Shown here one piece after another: positions 1 through 5,282 of a stretch of DNA of 5,282 nt. Each line of letters begins with the position of its first letter. The first letter of the stretch is position 1. The DNA lies in assembly GCA_022825185.1 (NCBI GenBank), contig JAJDYK010000192.1, forward strand, positions 1 through 5,282. The letters are read 5' to 3'. This DNA comes from Candidatus Latescibacterota bacterium (lineage in GTDB: Bacteria; Latescibacterota; UBA2968; UBA8231). The translations under genes were made by a program, and so were the position numbers. The notes beneath the pieces were generated by a model. The model was given only the letters and a program-made list of their open reading frames with translations, did no database searches and was not told the origin of the DNA.

Positions 1-1
1 C

Positions 2-739
2 TTCCAGACGCCTACCACCTCTGAGTTGGGCAATCGGCCCAGCGGCGAGGGCGGCTTCAACCCGGATCTAGGCCCTGAGCGCGTCCTCGGGTTGGAGACG
101 GGCTTGCGCCGCCACGTGCGCCGGGGGCGCTTGGATCTGGAGGTGGCCTTGTATCAACTCCAGATCGCCGACGCGCTGATTCCCTTTCAGGTCGAGAGCG
201 AAGACAGCGAGGAGATTTACTTCCGCAACGCCGGCCAAGCGCGCAACCGAGGGCTGGAACTGTCGCTCTCGGCGGTGCCGCATCCTGGATTGCGGACCAC
301 CCTCGCGTACACTTTTGGCGACTATGTTTTTGAGGACTACGAGGTTGAGACCGACGGTGAACTTGTTCAGCTCGCTGGCAACGAAGTGCCGGGCGTGCCG
401 CGCCACCGGCTTTTCGCCGCGCTGAGCTACGACAGTCCGCAGGGCCTGTTTGCCGAGGTCGAATTAGAGCGGGTCGGCCGCTACTGGGCCAATGATTTCA
501 ACGGCCCGCCGCCCGGAAGCGACGCCGCGTCCGACGAGTTTTTCAACCGCTCGTATCTGCGGGTTGATCTGCGCTTGGGAATCGACTATCGCGCAGCGAG
601 GCCCTTTGTTGCGGTCGATAACCTGTTTGATGCCCGGTACAACGGCTCGGTGGTTCCCAACGCCTTTGGCGGGCGCTTCTTTGAACCCGCTCCGGGTCGC
701 ACTTGGCGCTTGGGGATTGGAGGATGGATTGGGGGTTGA
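2..739 (+). CDS. TonB-dependent outer-membrane receptor, C-terminal part (5' truncated by window edge)
   Basis: About 245 residues of the C-terminal beta-barrel of a TonB-dependent receptor, which imports siderophores, cobalamin or other large ligands across the outer membrane using TonB-ExbBD energy. The frame is open to the left edge, so the N-terminal plug and TonB box lie outside; the TTG at 26 is internal, not a start. Family-typical stretches are TPTTSEL near the left end followed by a GGFNPDLGPER segment and GLETG (8-103), a YFRNAGQARNRGLELS strand pair (about 218-271), NLFDARYN (620-643) and GGRFFEPAPGRTW (668-706). These match the last strands of FecA/CirA-like receptors. Alternating hydrophobic and polar residues fit transmembrane beta strands. 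The protein ends in WIGG rather than the usual final aromatic residue (often RF), so its last few codons may have been replaced at a junction. The ligand cannot be told from this part. The family call is secure. Confidence 0.93.
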   Translation, partial: FQTPTTSELGNRPSGEGGFNPDLGPERVLGLETGLRRHVRRGRLDLEVALYQLQIADALIPFQVESEDSEEIYFRNAGQARNRGLELSLSAVPHPGLRTTLAYTFGDYVFEDYEVETDGELVQLAGNEVPGVPRHRLFAALSYDSPQGLFAEVELERVGRYWANDFNGPPPGSDAASDEFFNRSYLRVDLRLGIDYRAARPFVAVDNLFDARYNGSVVPNAFGGRFFEPAPGRTWRLGIGGWIGG

Positions 740-915
740 GTCTCGGTCTGCGGATTGACTCAGACAAAGTAAATTGGGCCGGCGACCCGGCGGCTGTGGC
801 TAACGAGGTGCTTTCGTCTTACTACGATCTCACCCCGGATACCGAGGTCGTCGAAGGCGGCCAACTGGGGTTGTTTGACCTAGAGGAGAATATCGCCACC
901 GTGGGGATGAACTGA
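724..915 (+). pseudogene. Probable 3' remnant of the gene that preceded the ATPase in its operon
   Basis: A frame of 63 codons from the ATG at 724, open back to 685 without another convincing start. It overlaps the end of the receptor gene in a different frame and stops at 913-915, sharing one base with the ATPase start (TGATG). Such an overlap is normal for translationally coupled operon genes and suggests that this is the true end of a former upstream partner. The product is acidic and soluble, with DPAAVANEVLSSYYDL in the middle and a GGQLGLFDLEE tail; there is no signal peptide or membrane segment. A GGAGG lies directly against the ATG with no spacing, so initiation there is doubtful. By analogy with Ssp loci, where the DUF4007 gene sspB precedes the ATPase gene, it may be the end of such a gene. 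That identity is inferred from position only. It could also be a genuine small protein. Confidence 0.45.
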
Positions 916-3900
916 TGGTAGCATTAGCAGACTACATTGCCGTTGTCGGGCGATTCGCTCGCTCGGCCAGCCTAGAGCGCGACATCGCCCGGCGCGAGCC
1001 ACTTGATGGCTATATCGTCACTGCCCGAGCGCTCGATGTGGTGGAACGCATCGCTACCACGGCTGCAAACGGCGCTGCGGGCGGAGCTTGGTCATTGACC
1101 GGCCCTTACGGATCGGGTAAATCATCGCTCGCTCTGCTTCTCGACGCCGCATTCGGTGAGCGCGATGCCACGCGAGCCGCTGCGACCGAACTGATTGAGG
1201 CGACATCACCAGCCGTAGCCGACCTCCTCGCTCGCGCACATCAAGCCCGTGGAACCGAGGAACGGGGATTCCACCGCGCCGTAGTCACTGCGAGCCGGGA
1301 ACCGCTGCACCACACCGTCTTGCGAGCGCTTGAGTCCGCCGTCATCCGGGCCTATGGAACTATCCCCTCGACGCGCACATTCCGAGCGGCTAAAACGCTT
1401 AAGACTGCACTCGCCGATGCCGCATCCGATGATCCGCGTAGAGTCGGCCCCTCACCGGCGGACCTGCTCGAAGTGGCCCGCTGCTTGGCTGAAGACGCTC
1501 CGCTGCTGCTCATCATTGACGAGTTCGGCAAAAACCTTGAAGCAATCAGCGATGGATCGGATGCCGACCCCTATCTCTTGCAACAACTCGCCGAGGCAGG
1601 ACAAGGAGCTGGCCTCCCGATCTTCGCGCTAACGCTACAACACCTGTCCTTTGAGGATTATCTCGTTGGCATTGATGGCCCGCGACGGCGGGAGTGGGCA
1701 AAGGTCCAGGGCCGATTTGAAGATGTCGCGTATATCGAGTCTGCCGCTCAGACCCGCGCCCTGATCGGAACGGTTTTCGAGATTGACGACGATCTGCAAC
1801 CCCGCATCAGACGATGGGCTGAGACCCATGCTAAAGAGATGCGCGCCCTCGGAGTTGCTGACCTCGCCACCGCCGCCGCGGTCGAGGCGTGCTATCCGCT
1901 GCATCCTCTTACCGCCCTAGTGCTTCCAGAGCTGTGCAGCCGCTACGGACAGCACGAGCGCACCCTTTTCTCGTTCCTGACCGGTGCTGACTCGGCTACT
2001 GCCGCTTCGTTTTTGTCCGCTACCCCCTTACCGAATCGGGGCGTATTGCCATCGCTCGGCTTGGACGCTGTCTATAACTACTTCGTCGCGGGCGGAGCGG
2101 GCGCGGTTGGCTACTCGCAGCGGTGGTCGGAGATCGCTACCCGACTGCGCGACGCTCATGGCCTGACAGAGAGCCAGACGAAGCTGGCCAAGTCGATCGC
2201 CATCCTCAACCTCGTTTCTACCGGAGGGGCTGCCCGCGCATCCGCCCAAGTACTCGACATCGCTTTCAATGGCGCAGCAAAGGTCCTAACGAGCCTGCAA
2301 GACGCCGGTATCGTCACGTATCGCGATTTTGCCGACGAATTCCGAATTTGGCATGGCACGGATGTTGACATTCGCGGACTTATCAAGGCCGCTCACGCCA
2401 AGGTGCAGCGGCAACCGCTCGTGGAGATCCTCGCTGCAATCCACGAACCTGAACCCGTGGTCGCGGCTCGGCACAGTGCCGAACACGACATCCTGCGCGT
2501 GTTTGCCCGTCGCTATGTTGACGGCACTGAGTCGGTTGCCCCGCTGGACCCGTTCTCTCCCTATGACGGGGAAGTTCTGCTGACGGTCGCGCCGGACGCC
2601 ATGCCAACGCTCGCCCAAGCTGGCGAGAATGCAAAACCCGTCGTCGCGGCCATACCGGACGATCTTACTCGCCTCAACGATGTGGCCCGCGAGGTTGCAG
2701 CCGTTGCCGATGTCCTCGACCACGATAGTGTAAAAGACGACTGGGTTGCGCGGCGCGAAATCGGCGAACGACTCGCCCAAGCTGAGACTGCACTGAGTAA
2801 TGCCATAGAAGTCACGTTCAACGCCGAGGTTTGCCGCTGGGTCCTGCTCGGTCCCAACGGACCGACCAATCTTCTGGCCAATAAGGCTAGAAGACGGGGC
2901 AGTGCCGCGCTCTCAGCAGCAGCCGACCGCGCTTACTCGGCGACGCCGGTCGTGGGCAACGAGATGCTCAACCGCACGGCCGTTACTTCACAGGGAGCCA
3001 AGGCCCGGCGCATATTGCTTGAAGCGATGATCGAATTCGGCAATCATATTGACCTCAATCTCGAAGGACATGGCCCTGAAGTGGCTATGTACCATGCCTT
3101 CATTAAAGGAACGGGAATGCACGGCTGGGATCAGCGCAATGAGGTTATGGTCTTCCGCTCGCCGACTGATAAGAAACTGAGACCAGCATGGGATCTTCTT
3201 GATTCAGAATTTGACCGCGCTAGCACCCGTCGGATCAATCTTGCGGACATCTACGCAGCCCTGCTGTCGCCGCCGATAGGGATGAAAGCCGAGGTGATTC
3301 CCGTTTTCGTCACAGTTGGGTTGCTAGCATATAGCGACGCAGTCGCAATCTACGAACACGGCACGTTTAGGCCGCTTCTCACCGCCGATCTTTCCGAGCG
3401 GATGGTTCGCAACCCCAAGCACTTCGACCTCAAGCATTTCGCCAACACGTCCGGTGCGCGTCGCCAAGTCATTGAAGTACTCGCTACCCGGCTTGAGGTC
3501 CGCCCGCGCTTCCGCAAGCATCGTGTCTCCAATGTCCTCGCTGTCGTTGGTGAACTCGTGTCGCAGGTAAGACAGCTCGACAACTACACGCGGCGCACGC
3601 GCAACCTTTCGGACGCTGCTGCCGCCCTCCGCGAGGCCCTTGCCGCCGCTGTGGAACCCGACGAATTGCTGTTTGCCGCGATCCCCGAGGCCCTTGGTTA
3701 TCGTCCCATTCCGGCCTCGACCAAGACTTATAGCAAGGCGAGCGAGTATGCGGACTCCGTCGCCGTCGCGCTTGAAGAGTTGACAGGCTCTTACCAGCGC
3801 CTTGTGGATGAGATGCTCAATGAGTTGTTTTCTGTCAGTGGAGAGACCTCACGCCTCACTATTGCGGAACAAGCCGCTGCGCTCGATGGCGAGGTACTCG

Positions 3901-4361
3901 ATTCTGAGGTGCGCGCATTCGTCCTTGCACTCGCCAACGATGGCATTGATTCCGATATTGATTGGATTCAGACCATTGCGACGGTTGTTGCCAAGAAAGC
4001 CCCGGCCGAGTGGACGGACGCTGATCGCGACCGCTTCCGCCAAGAGCTATCTCAGCAAGTCGCGTCTTTCCAGCGGCTAGTCGCTCTCCACGCTGACCGC
4101 CGCGCTCCTGGAATTGATTCAAACGCCATGCGGCTGACCGTCACTCGCGCTGACGGCACTGAGTACGTCCGCCTCGTCGGAGTTGATCGCGCCCAGCGAG
4201 ACGCTGGAGAGGATGTCCTCGACGACGCACTTATGCGCCTTACTGACCTTACCGGCTCCCCAGCCCGTGCCCAGCAAACACTCCTTGCATTGCTTGGCGA
4301 ACGGCTCCTACCCGCGCCCGAGCAGGACGCGCCTACTGAAGAGAGGAGACAACATGGCTGA
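915..4361 (+). CDS. Large P-loop ATPase of a DNA-modification defence system (SspC-like or BrxC/PglY-like)
   Basis: A complete 1148-residue cytoplasmic ATPase. Walker A is GPYGSGKS (residues 63-70) and Walker B is LLLIIDE (197-203), followed by FGKNLE. A likely sensor strand is IFALTLQH (236-243). Further family-like motifs are EWAKVQGRFED (260-270) and a helical block with HPLTALVLPEL and QHERTLFSFL (330-355). The remaining 790 or so residues match no domain I can name; they include GNEMLNR (681-687) and GPEVAMY (720-726) and end in a charged region (TVTRADGTEYVRL). No transmembrane segment is evident. The ATG at 915 overlaps the preceding stop by one base and has a weak GGGG 8 bases upstream. 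The gene runs 8 bases into the following PP-loop gene, so the two are probably co-translated. ATPases of this size beside a PAPS-reductase-like gene occur in Ssp phosphorothioation (SspC) and type 4 BREX (BrxC/PglY-like). ATPase fold: near certain. Defence role: inferred from motifs and neighbour. Choice between Ssp and BREX: open. Confidence 0.85.
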   Translation: MVALADYIAVVGRFARSASLERDIARREPLDGYIVTARALDVVERIATTAANGAAGGAWSLTGPYGSGKSSLALLLDAAFGERDATRAAATELIEATSPAVADLLARAHQARGTEERGFHRAVVTASREPLHHTVLRALESAVIRAYGTIPSTRTFRAAKTLKTALADAASDDPRRVGPSPADLLEVARCLAEDAPLLLIIDEFGKNLEAISDGSDADPYLLQQLAEAGQGAGLPIFALTLQHLSFEDYLVGIDGPRRREWAKVQGRFEDVAYIESAAQTRALIGTVFEIDDDLQPRIRRWAETHAKEMRALGVADLATAAAVEACYPLHPLTALVLPELCSRYGQHERTLFSFLTGADSATAASFLSATPLPNRGVLPSLGLDAVYNYFVAGGAGAVGYSQRWSEIATRLRDAHGLTESQTKLAKSIAILNLVSTGGAARASAQVLDIAFNGAAKVLTSLQDAGIVTYRDFADEFRIWHGTDVDIRGLIKAAHAKVQRQPLVEILAAIHEPEPVVAARHSAEHDILRVFARRYVDGTESVAPLDPFSPYDGEVLLTVAPDAMPTLAQAGENAKPVVAAIPDDLTRLNDVAREVAAVADVLDHDSVKDDWVARREIGERLAQAETALSNAIEVTFNAEVCRWVLLGPNGPTNLLANKARRRGSAALSAAADRAYSATPVVGNEMLNRTAVTSQGAKARRILLEAMIEFGNHIDLNLEGHGPEVAMYHAFIKGTGMHGWDQRNEVMVFRSPTDKKLRPAWDLLDSEFDRASTRRINLADIYAALLSPPIGMKAEVIPVFVTVGLLAYSDAVAIYEHGTFRPLLTADLSERMVRNPKHFDLKHFANTSGARRQVIEVLATRLEVRPRFRKHRVSNVLAVVGELVSQVRQLDNYTRRTRNLSDAAAALREALAAAVEPDELLFAAIPEALGYRPIPASTKTYSKASEYADSVAVALEELTGSYQRLVDEMLNELFSVSGETSRLTIAEQAAALDGEVLDSEVRAFVLALANDGIDSDIDWIQTIATVVAKKAPAEWTDADRDRFRQELSQQVASFQRLVALHADRRAPGIDSNAMRLTVTRADGTEYVRLVGVDRAQRDAGEDVLDDALMRLTDLTGSPARAQQTLLALLGERLLPAPEQDAPTEERRQHG
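4344..4348 (+). promoter_or_regulatory. Ribosome binding site (AGGAG) fixing the start of the PP-loop gene
   Basis: AGGAG lies 5 bases before the ATG at 4354, inside the last codons of the ATPase gene. It supports starting the 282-residue protein at 4354 rather than at any upstream in-frame codon, and it fits reinitiation by ribosomes finishing the ATPase. Confidence 0.75.
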
Positions 4362-5202
4362 TAACACGCGCCACATTTGTGGCATCTCAGGGGGCAAGGA
4401 CTCCAGCGCCCTTGCTGTGTACATGCGCCGTGAGGTTCCGGATATGGAGTACTTCTTCTGCGACACCGGGGCCGAGCTTCCCGAGACCTACGAGTATTTG
4501 GCCCGGCTTGAGGTCGTACTTGGCAAGCCGATAGCTAGGCTCAATGCCTCTCGTGGCTTTGACCACTGGTTCGAGGTGTTTCGCGGTGCGCTGCCGTCCC
4601 CGCAGATGCGGTGGTGTACCAGAAACATGAAGATCAAGCCGATTGAGGAGTGGGTCGGCGATGAGCCGGTCGTCTCGTACGTTGCCATTCGCGCCGACGA
4701 ATCCAACCGCAAGGGCTACATTTCTACCAAGCCCAACATCAAGACTCGCTTTCCGTTTGTCGAAGATGGCGTGACGCACGACGACGTTCTCCGCATCCTC
4801 GAAGATGCTGGTATCGGCCTTCCCGAATATTACGAGTGGCGGACTCGTTCCGGGTGCTATTTCTGTTTCTATCAGCGTAAAGCCGAGTGGGTCGGCCTTG
4901 CAGAGCGCCATCCCGAACTCTTCGAGCGCGCCATTGCCATCGAACAGAAAGTACTGCGCGACGCCGGTGTTGATGGCGACGCCGACTTCTCCGACCGAGC
5001 TATGCGTGGTCGTCAATACACATGGTCCGGCGGCGAGACGCTCGTCCAACTGCTCAAGCGCCGCGAGGAGATTCTCGCACGTCACAAAGATGCTATGGAC
5101 CGTGCCGGTAAGAAGAAGACCAATGTCCCGTTGGTTGAAGCACTTGCTGAAGCTCTGGACGATGAGGACGATACTGAGGCTTGTACGGTATGTTCGTTGT
5201 GA
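4354..5202 (+). CDS. PAPS-reductase/DndC-like ATP pyrophosphatase (SspD- or BrxP-like)
   Basis: A complete 282-residue cytoplasmic protein of the adenine nucleotide alpha-hydrolase (PP-loop) fold. The PP-loop is SGGKDSS (residues 12-18), followed by a FFCDTGAELPET segment (34-45) typical of the PAPS-reductase/DndC family. Cysteines are C9, C36, C88 (in RWCT), C168 and C171 (GCYFC), C277 and C280. C88, C168 and C171 are well placed to bind an iron-sulfur cluster, as cysteines do in DndC; the CTVCSL tail may be a redox or sulfur-transfer site. The canonical SGGxDS loop and the lack of the CysH-type C-terminal ECGLH motif argue against sulfate assimilation. In phosphorothioation such proteins use ATP to activate the DNA backbone before sulfur from a cysteine desulfurase is inserted; type 4 BREX has a similar gene (brxP) in place of the methylase. 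It is shorter than most DndC proteins. It overlaps the ATPase gene by 8 bases. Family: firm. DNA as substrate: inferred from context. Confidence 0.88.
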   Translation: MADNTRHICGISGGKDSSALAVYMRREVPDMEYFFCDTGAELPETYEYLARLEVVLGKPIARLNASRGFDHWFEVFRGALPSPQMRWCTRNMKIKPIEEWVGDEPVVSYVAIRADESNRKGYISTKPNIKTRFPFVEDGVTHDDVLRILEDAGIGLPEYYEWRTRSGCYFCFYQRKAEWVGLAERHPELFERAIAIEQKVLRDAGVDGDADFSDRAMRGRQYTWSGGETLVQLLKRREEILARHKDAMDRAGKKKTNVPLVEALAEALDDEDDTEACTVCSL

Positions 5203-5246
5203 GGGGAAAATTAACGACAGGCAGGTGTATTGGGATTATTTCAATC

Positions 5247-5259
5247 AGGTTAGTAACCT
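5247..5259. promoter_or_regulatory. 13-base palindrome, possible operator
   Basis: AGGTTA and TAACCT form a perfect inverted repeat around a single central G. The one-base centre makes a long RNA hairpin unlikely, and the flanking run is A on the plus strand, so it does not look like a terminator. Its place in an AT-rich intergenic stretch, just before a possible start codon at 5265, fits a dimeric regulator's operator. A weak promoter-like pair lies upstream (TTAACG at 5211-5216 and GATTAT at 5234-5239, 17 bases apart). A short palindrome of this kind can also arise by chance. Confidence 0.3.
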
Positions 5260-5264
5260 AAAAA

Positions 5265-5282
5265 ATGGACCGAGAATTAATT
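5265..5282 (+). CDS. Possible start of a further gene (first six codons only)
   Basis: ATG at 5265 opens a frame reading MDRELI to the window edge, with an in-frame stop (TAA, 5259-5261) just before it. No Shine-Dalgarno sequence is seen at a useful distance. The 80-base stretch 5203-5282 is about 36 percent GC, well below the genes to its left, so a new transcription unit or foreign DNA may begin here. Ssp and type 4 BREX loci carry further genes after the PAPS-reductase-like gene (for example sspE, or pglZ and brxL), but six codons cannot identify one. Confidence 0.2.

Follow-up and report, generated by a model that had tools for sequence, protein, structure and literature searches.

Phosphorothioate writers and reader nucleases

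Phosphorothioate (PT) marks are written on DNA by the Ssp system (SspABCD with SspE or SspFGH), in which sspD, sspC, and sspB form the core writer and the desulfurase may be linked or distant (PMC12707154). The nickase activity of SspB is reported to be essential for PT, SspA can be replaced by IscS (PMC8092258), and SspD has been found in complex with SspA (PMC7188994). PT marks are also read by nucleases: cells die when dnd, another PT writer, is expressed together with the reader ScoMcrA, and a 93-kb island including dnd had been lost from S. lividans exconjugants carrying the ScoMcrA gene (PMC3009677). Here we analyze a stretch of 5,282 nucleotides from a Candidatus Latescibacterota bacterium (GCA_022825185.1, contig JAJDYK010000192.1, positions 1 to 5,282; referred to as the window), in which sspC and sspD stand between a remnant of sspB and the start of a gene for a putative PT reader nuclease with SBD and HNH domains (SBD-HNH). 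The reading that we favor, and consider fairly probable, is that SBD-HNH entered an Ssp locus and that PT writing was then lost, in a conflict between a marker and an enzyme that cuts the mark.

Related arrangements have been reported. SBD-type HNH proteins occur in Dnd neighborhoods (PMC10853773), many sspBCD modules occur without known effectors (PMC8092258), the mutual exclusion described in PMC12707154 concerns C-protein-controlled systems, and sponge metagenomes are enriched in PT genes that were described as "not functionally complete" (PMC5099237). In the excerpts consulted of the literature on phosphorothioation in Latescibacter, on orphan SspB, SspC, or SspD, and on type IV exclusion, no locus with only sspC and sspD beside SBD-HNH is described, nor is sspCD without sspB.

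An Ssp locus truncated by deletion of sspA and most of sspB

The two complete genes of the window are sspC and sspD of the Ssp system, both full length. The sspA gene is absent from the locus, as is all of sspB except its last 46 codons, and the gene for a TonB-dependent receptor runs directly into this remnant. The features, by window position, are as follows.

2..739, + strand: 3′ end of the TonB-dependent receptor gene, the conserved left neighbor (Pfam PF00593, 85.6 bits)
740..774, no strand: DNA behind the TonB gene, with the deletion junction at about 774/775; no difference from locus L001
775..915, + strand: sspB remnant, last 46 codons and stop, its final base shared with the sspC start codon (BLASTP)
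915..4361, + strand: sspC, 1,148 amino acids (aa), the AAA+ ATPase component of Ssp phosphorothioation (PADLOC SspC PDLC02781, 1037 bits, E = 0, residues 16 to 1104)
4354..5202, + strand: sspD, 282 aa, PP-loop ATP pyrophosphatase/sulfur carrier (PADLOC SspD PDLC02782, 371 bits, E = 9e-112, residues 6 to 281)
5265..5282, + strand: first six codons (MDRELI) of the SBD-HNH gene, cut by the window end; same start and position in L001 and L002

An initial annotation, made from the sequence alone, had assigned the gene pair to either Ssp or type 4 BREX. That pairing of families was right, and the profile search decides for SspC-SspD, since the PADLOC scores for these two models are far higher than those for type 4 BREX or Dnd. 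Type 4 BREX has a PP-loop protein and a large ATPase from the same superfamilies, but the window proteins score much lower on its models (BrxP, 42.6 bits versus 371 for SspD; best BrxC, 312 bits versus 1037 for SspC), and it was rejected. Also rejected were Dnd for the PP-loop protein (DndC, 27 bits; TIGR03183, 19 bits against a cutoff of 290) and CysH, the latter on profile scores. None of ten neighbor proteins scanned (seven from locus L002, two from L055, and one from L058) matched PglZ or BrxL; one of the ten matched mad2 and was an RsmF-like methyltransferase by Pfam.

The same annotation had called the pair the core of a phosphorothioation system. The genes do belong to the Ssp family, but a working writer is not supported, with sspA and nearly all of sspB deleted. 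As in described Ssp systems, sspC and sspD are full length and adjacent, and sister locus L003 has the order sspABCD (as does L004, as far as its contig reaches). Unlike those systems, the window lacks the first two genes, and its neighbor is SBD-HNH rather than SspE or SspFGH. Of the flanking genes that had been proposed for inspection, the cysteine desulfurase and the DUF4007 gene (sspB) are thus gone at this locus save for the 46 sspB codons, and downstream stands the SBD-HNH start; the remnant at 775 to 915, the deletion, and the start at 5265 had all gone unmentioned.

The remnant was recognized by BLASTP, in which the window frame 703 to 912 aligned with residues 281 to 329 of the L004 SspB (69% identity, E = 2e-19). 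L001 has an identical junction, without a single difference between 704 and 910, in a stretch that otherwise differs from the window by 311 substitutions. A chimeric assembly was considered and rejected: the identical junction recurs in this diverged metagenome-assembled genome (MAG), which makes assembly error unlikely, and other junctions lie at the same place in L002 and in genome G013. The deletion is therefore a feature of the locus, and its breakpoints differ in other genomes. L002 resembles the window through 740 to 774 and then continues toward an sspA stub, with sspA residues 11 to 65 and 11 codons of sspB retained. In G013, sspA residues 13 to 69 and 304 to 315 are followed by SBD-HNH, with no sspB, sspC, or sspD between them on a 5.97-Mb contig.

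Since SspB nicking is essential and sspB belongs to the core writer, the window-type allele should not mark DNA, and PT is probably absent. It is very improbable that the Ssp writer is nevertheless complete, with sspA and sspB supplied from elsewhere in the genome. SspA is replaceable by IscS (PMC8092258), IscS-like proteins with 44 to 45% identity to SspA are encoded away from the locus in G001 and G002 (MAGs in the same state as the window), and the completeness of these two MAGs is not given. However, a search for DUF4007/SspB gave no match in G001 (5.8 Mb) or G002 (6.2 Mb), and the same search was positive in 13 of 47 genomes of the class.

A gene for a putative reader nuclease behind sspD

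The last 18 bases of the window, ATGGACCGAGAATTAATT, are the start of the gene that follows sspD in L001 and L002. In L002 this gene (L002:14353-15240) encodes a protein of 295 aa that matches NF045808, "phosphorothioated DNA-binding restriction endonuclease," with 340.6 bits (cutoff, 180) and HNH_2 with 42.7 bits. In G001 it spans two contigs with a perfect overlap of 109 bases. Between L002 and G001 its dN/dS is 0.20. SBD-HNH follows the broken alleles in G001, L002, and G013, and it starts in the window; other genes follow sspD in L003 and L004, and SBD-HNH had no match in G003 and none at E ≤ 1e-40 in G004.

The SBD half of the L002 protein resembles McrA chains 5zmm, 5zmo, and 5zmn (ScoMcrA), as well as 7cc9, 7ccd, and 7ccj, which we take to be SprMcrA. 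Among the residues named for the ScoMcrA pocket (PMC6224610), the alignment shows H116, Y164, and P165 conserved and R117 replaced by K, as in most homologs. The protein differs from ScoMcrA in architecture, with SBD and HNH only rather than SBD-SRA-HNH, and from both McrA enzymes in the position of its gene, which immediately follows sspD in a truncated writer operon. SBD specificity determines which PT marks are restricted (PMC7470945).

Related loci with an intact writer

One scan of genome contigs yielded five loci, four of them full length with 85 to 95% identity; the fifth, L005, was short and was not used. The host family is one of uncultured bacteria, and among the MAGs two are titled Latescibacterota and one Gemmatimonadetes; from their names, we take the MAGs to be of sponge origin. 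L003 holds the TonB gene followed by complete sspA (399 aa; PADLOC SspA, 422 bits), sspB, sspC, and sspD. The L004 contig begins inside sspA and continues with sspB (331 aa; PADLOC SspB, 334 bits; DUF4007, 281 bits), sspC, and sspD. L004 is titled Rhodothermales and may come from a mis-binned contig, because its sspC-sspD and its RsmF-like neighbor are close to those of L002 (88.5 and 91.7% identical, respectively) and its alignment with L003 extends over 11 kb at 83%. A second SspD lies on a separate contig of the same genome, G004.

Behind the complete sspABCD of L003, the stretch L003:14357-18830 encodes effector candidates, namely a helicase, an MzaB-like GHKL ATPase, and a protein weakly resembling DrmC (23 bits), none of which matched the SspE or SspFGH models. 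The same GHKL ATPase is encoded in L004, whose alignment with L003 continues through that stretch.

Distribution of SspD, DUF4007, and SBD-HNH

Co-occurrence was surveyed in the 47 genomes of the class of G001, with strong SspD defined as over 290 bits, and in a sample of 395 genomes from the phylum of G004, with SspD at E ≤ 1e-40 (at least 164 bits). In the class, strong SspD and DUF4007 over the cutoff were each found in 13 of 47 genomes and SBD-HNH over the cutoff in 4. Among the 13 SspD genomes, DUF4007 was full length in 10, truncated in G041, and missing in G001 and G002. In the phylum sample, all 21 SspD genomes carried full-length DUF4007, DUF4007 as such was present in 26 of 395 overall, and none of the nine genomes with SBD-HNH over the cutoff had SspD or DUF4007. 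Pooled over both surveys, SBD-HNH was found in 0 of 31 SspD genomes with full-length sspB and in 2 of 3 in which sspB was missing or truncated (Fisher P = 0.005; P = 0.04 in the class alone), values that ignore kinship.

Besides G001 and G002, SBD-HNH is found in two members of the class: G013, which had no SspD or DUF4007 match, and G042, in which sspA and sspB are present, SspD had no match, and SBD-HNH lies on another contig. The sspC of G042 (L056:1-2150) breaks off after about 665 codons, where a repeated sequence interrupts it at the contig end; this sequence has 13 matches in the genome, counting itself and partial matches. Because the cut sits at the contig end, G042 is weaker evidence. 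In G013 (L058:5031-7469), SBD-HNH has a DDE transposase gene and a short frame resembling GmrSD as neighbors, and this copy shows a length change near its start.

These distributions bear on a second explanation, in which a costly defense locus simply decayed in recent time and SBD-HNH had no causal role. Such decay has a precedent in G041, and the altered SBD-HNH of G013, with its transposase neighbor, would fit it as well. However, the three junction types found with SBD-HNH are all writer losses, both alleles without SBD-HNH keep sspB, sspC, and sspD, and sspB is full length in 31 of the 34 SspD genomes; we consider plain decay rather unlikely. The G041 locus itself (L060:1746-7242) has an intact sspA, an internally deleted sspB of which about the first 65 codons of the domain are left in a 98-codon frame, and both sspC and sspD.

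Probable loss of the writer beside the reader

Under our preferred explanation, loss of PT writing after the arrival of SBD-HNH, an ancestral sspABCD operon would have stood between the TonB-receptor gene and the RsmF-like methyltransferase gene. In one lineage, the genes for the helicase, the GHKL ATPase, and the weakly DrmC-like protein behind sspD would have been replaced by SBD-HNH, whose predicted product binds phosphorothioated DNA and cuts it. Because a PT-marked host could not tolerate an SBD-HNH enzyme that fits its mark, mutations abolishing marking would have been favored. In the window lineage, a deletion took out sspA and the nickase gene sspB. SspC and SspD are still encoded, with no PT expected in the absence of SspB, and SBD-HNH would then work on its own as a type IV enzyme, directed at foreign DNA that carries PT or at PT operons entering the cell.

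We place the arrival of SBD-HNH before the losses because three broken allele types have the gene in common but differ in their junctions; PT writing was perhaps lost two or three times. The deletions would be a relief of conflict because coexpression of dnd and ScoMcrA is lethal and the writer was lost in the exconjugants (PMC3009677). As in that Streptomyces conflict, a reader nuclease and the writer genes exclude each other, and it was the writer that the exconjugants examined had lost. In contrast to the laboratory loss of a 93-kb island, the losses here are natural deletions of sspA and sspB, and sspC and sspD are spared in three genomes, the window included.

Several observations weigh against this explanation. 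Because G001 and G002 share SBD-HNH by descent, the association of SBD-HNH with broken writers amounts essentially to a single acquisition with later losses, and the lack of overlap among the 395 genomes says little alone, with about 0.5 co-occurrences expected by chance among the 21 SspD genomes. One older deletion, later extended both ways, could also account for the different junctions. Since most of sspB is also missing from G041, in which no SBD-HNH was found, sspB can be lost for other reasons. Of the SBD-HNH gene, the window itself contains just the first 18 bases. The SBDs in the cited work were tested on Dnd-type sites; reading of the Ssp mark, C-PS-CA, is putative for this SBD, and its pocket residue A168 is R. 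Finally, sspC and sspD are little decayed, with only the L001 sspC ending early, by 12 codons.

Constraint on sspC and sspD

Both remaining genes look strongly constrained, and there is no sign of relaxation. Between the window and L001, dN/dS is 0.125 for sspC and about 0.005 for sspD (dN, 0.0015; dS, 0.326). By codon, sspD has 50 synonymous (S) and 0 nonsynonymous (N) single changes, with one multiple-change codon, which is nonsynonymous; sspC has 134 S and 37 N single changes and 16 multiple-change codons, which were not classed. Counting single-base changes that occur in just one of the three deletion genomes gives 44 S and 0 N for sspD and 98 S and 17 N for sspC; for the intact L003 and L004, the counts are 37 S and 5 N in sspD and 166 S and 48 N in sspC. 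These differences (P = 0.02 for sspD; P = 0.11 for sspC) both point toward more constraint in the deletion genomes.

The window-L001 divergence alternates between 0 to 4 and 10 to 20 differences per 150 bases, with about 1.6% around the junction and about 7% or higher over much of the remainder, a pattern that suggests recombination among strains. Low-divergence tracts lie at window positions 751 to 1500, 1951 to 2100, 3001 to 3600, and 3901 to 4200. Because of this mosaic, constraint cannot be dated to the time after the deletion, which may postdate most of the changes. The junction-linked tract itself shows 7 S and 5 N, a weak departure from neutrality (P = 0.03 to 0.06, by assumed kappa). 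Between L002 and G013, the sspA stubs are separated by 10 S and 3 N, which suggests that these losses are recent.

A third explanation would take this constraint at face value: SspC and SspD work without SspA and SspB, together with SBD-HNH, in a system that is rebuilt and not decaying, in which housekeeping IscS supplies sulfur, the SspC ring provides site access, and SBD-HNH nicks or reads. That has some chance of being correct but is unlikely. Open sspC and sspD in the window, L001 (with the shorter sspC), and L002, the substitution counts of the deletion genomes, and the IscS-like desulfurases remaining in G001 and G002 are all consistent with it. However, G013 keeps SBD-HNH with sspB, sspC, and sspD gone, the constraint could in large part be older than the deletion given the mosaic divergence, the junction-linked tract departs weakly from neutrality, and the counts in the sspA stubs give the losses of L002 and G013 a recent look.

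The rebuilt reading also draws on a viral locus. On the 146-kb viral contig IMGVR_UViG_2904150443_000004 (L116:7965-9515), a full-length SspD (PADLOC, 299.8 bits) is directly followed by a protein of 196 aa that matches the SBD half of NF045808 at 109.6 bits, below the cutoff, and has no HNH domain; no SspB was detected in the 16.9-kb locus. We think it doubtful, slightly more so than the rebuilt system as such, that SspCD and SBD-HNH form a new three-gene module, with the AAA+ ring and PP-loop enzyme serving a PT reader and not SspB; if they did, L116 would be a second, independent SspD-SBD partnership. Among viral contigs, SspB lay within the fetched stretch in four of seven SspD loci, and the viral-contig scan found no SBD-HNH relatives. 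In 50,697 phage records, the L116 SBD protein had no tblastn match and SspC had three partial matches below 60% identity; among plasmids, SspD matched 95 records, all below 60% identity.

Gene structure and motifs of the window proteins

The initial annotation had described an open reading frame (ORF) at 915 to 4361 and a frame at 4354 to 5202 overlapping by 8 bases, and both exist at those positions. Its motifs are likewise all present: Walker A, Walker B, and EWAKVQGRFED (residues 260 to 270) in SspC and SGGKDSS (12 to 18), RWC (86 to 88), and GCxxC (GCYFC, 167 to 171) in SspD, which additionally has CTVC (277 to 280).

1101..1124, + strand: Walker A of SspC, GPYGSGKS, residues 63 to 70 (motif position)
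1503..1523, + strand: Walker B of SspC, LLLIIDE, residues 197 to 203 (motif position)

Pfam gave AAA domains below the cutoff in SspC and PAPS_reduct at 36.7 bits in SspD, and one solved relative of SspD is named PptA. For a count of SspD cysteines, 24 sequences were collected (the window, L001 to L004, and 19 of 31 other strong SspD matches), and 5 without the letters SGGKDS were dropped; Cys88, Cys168, Cys171, Cys277, and Cys280 are kept in all 19 counted. The sspD start is the ATG at 4354; the ORF list opens the same frame earlier, with TTG at 4183.

From the overlap, fixed stoichiometry had been proposed. This does not hold, because the overlap varies among relatives (8 bases in the window, L003, and L004; 11 in L002) and L001 has none, its sspC stopping at 13411, ahead of the sspD start at 13440; at most, the overlap speaks for cotranslation. 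In L001, an in-frame TAG (L001:13411) shortens sspC by 12 codons and removes the overlap with sspD. A promoter scan of window positions 700 to 960 found no sigma-70-like site. The TonB gene, also present in L001, L002, L003, and G013, has PqqU as its best NCBIfam match (112 bits), far below the cutoff of 1200.

Implications

Incompatibility between a PT writer and a reader nuclease is already known from laboratory experiments. Here, one chromosomal locus is found among natural relatives in three states: with a complete writer, with a writer lacking sspA and sspB beside the reader, and with the reader alone. This is a natural allele set in which loss of Ssp marking driven by SBD-HNH, and a role of SspCD without SspB, may be tested. 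It also bears on how phosphorothioation is read from genomes, since taking SspC and SspD alone as evidence would call a genome such as this one PT positive when it probably is not.

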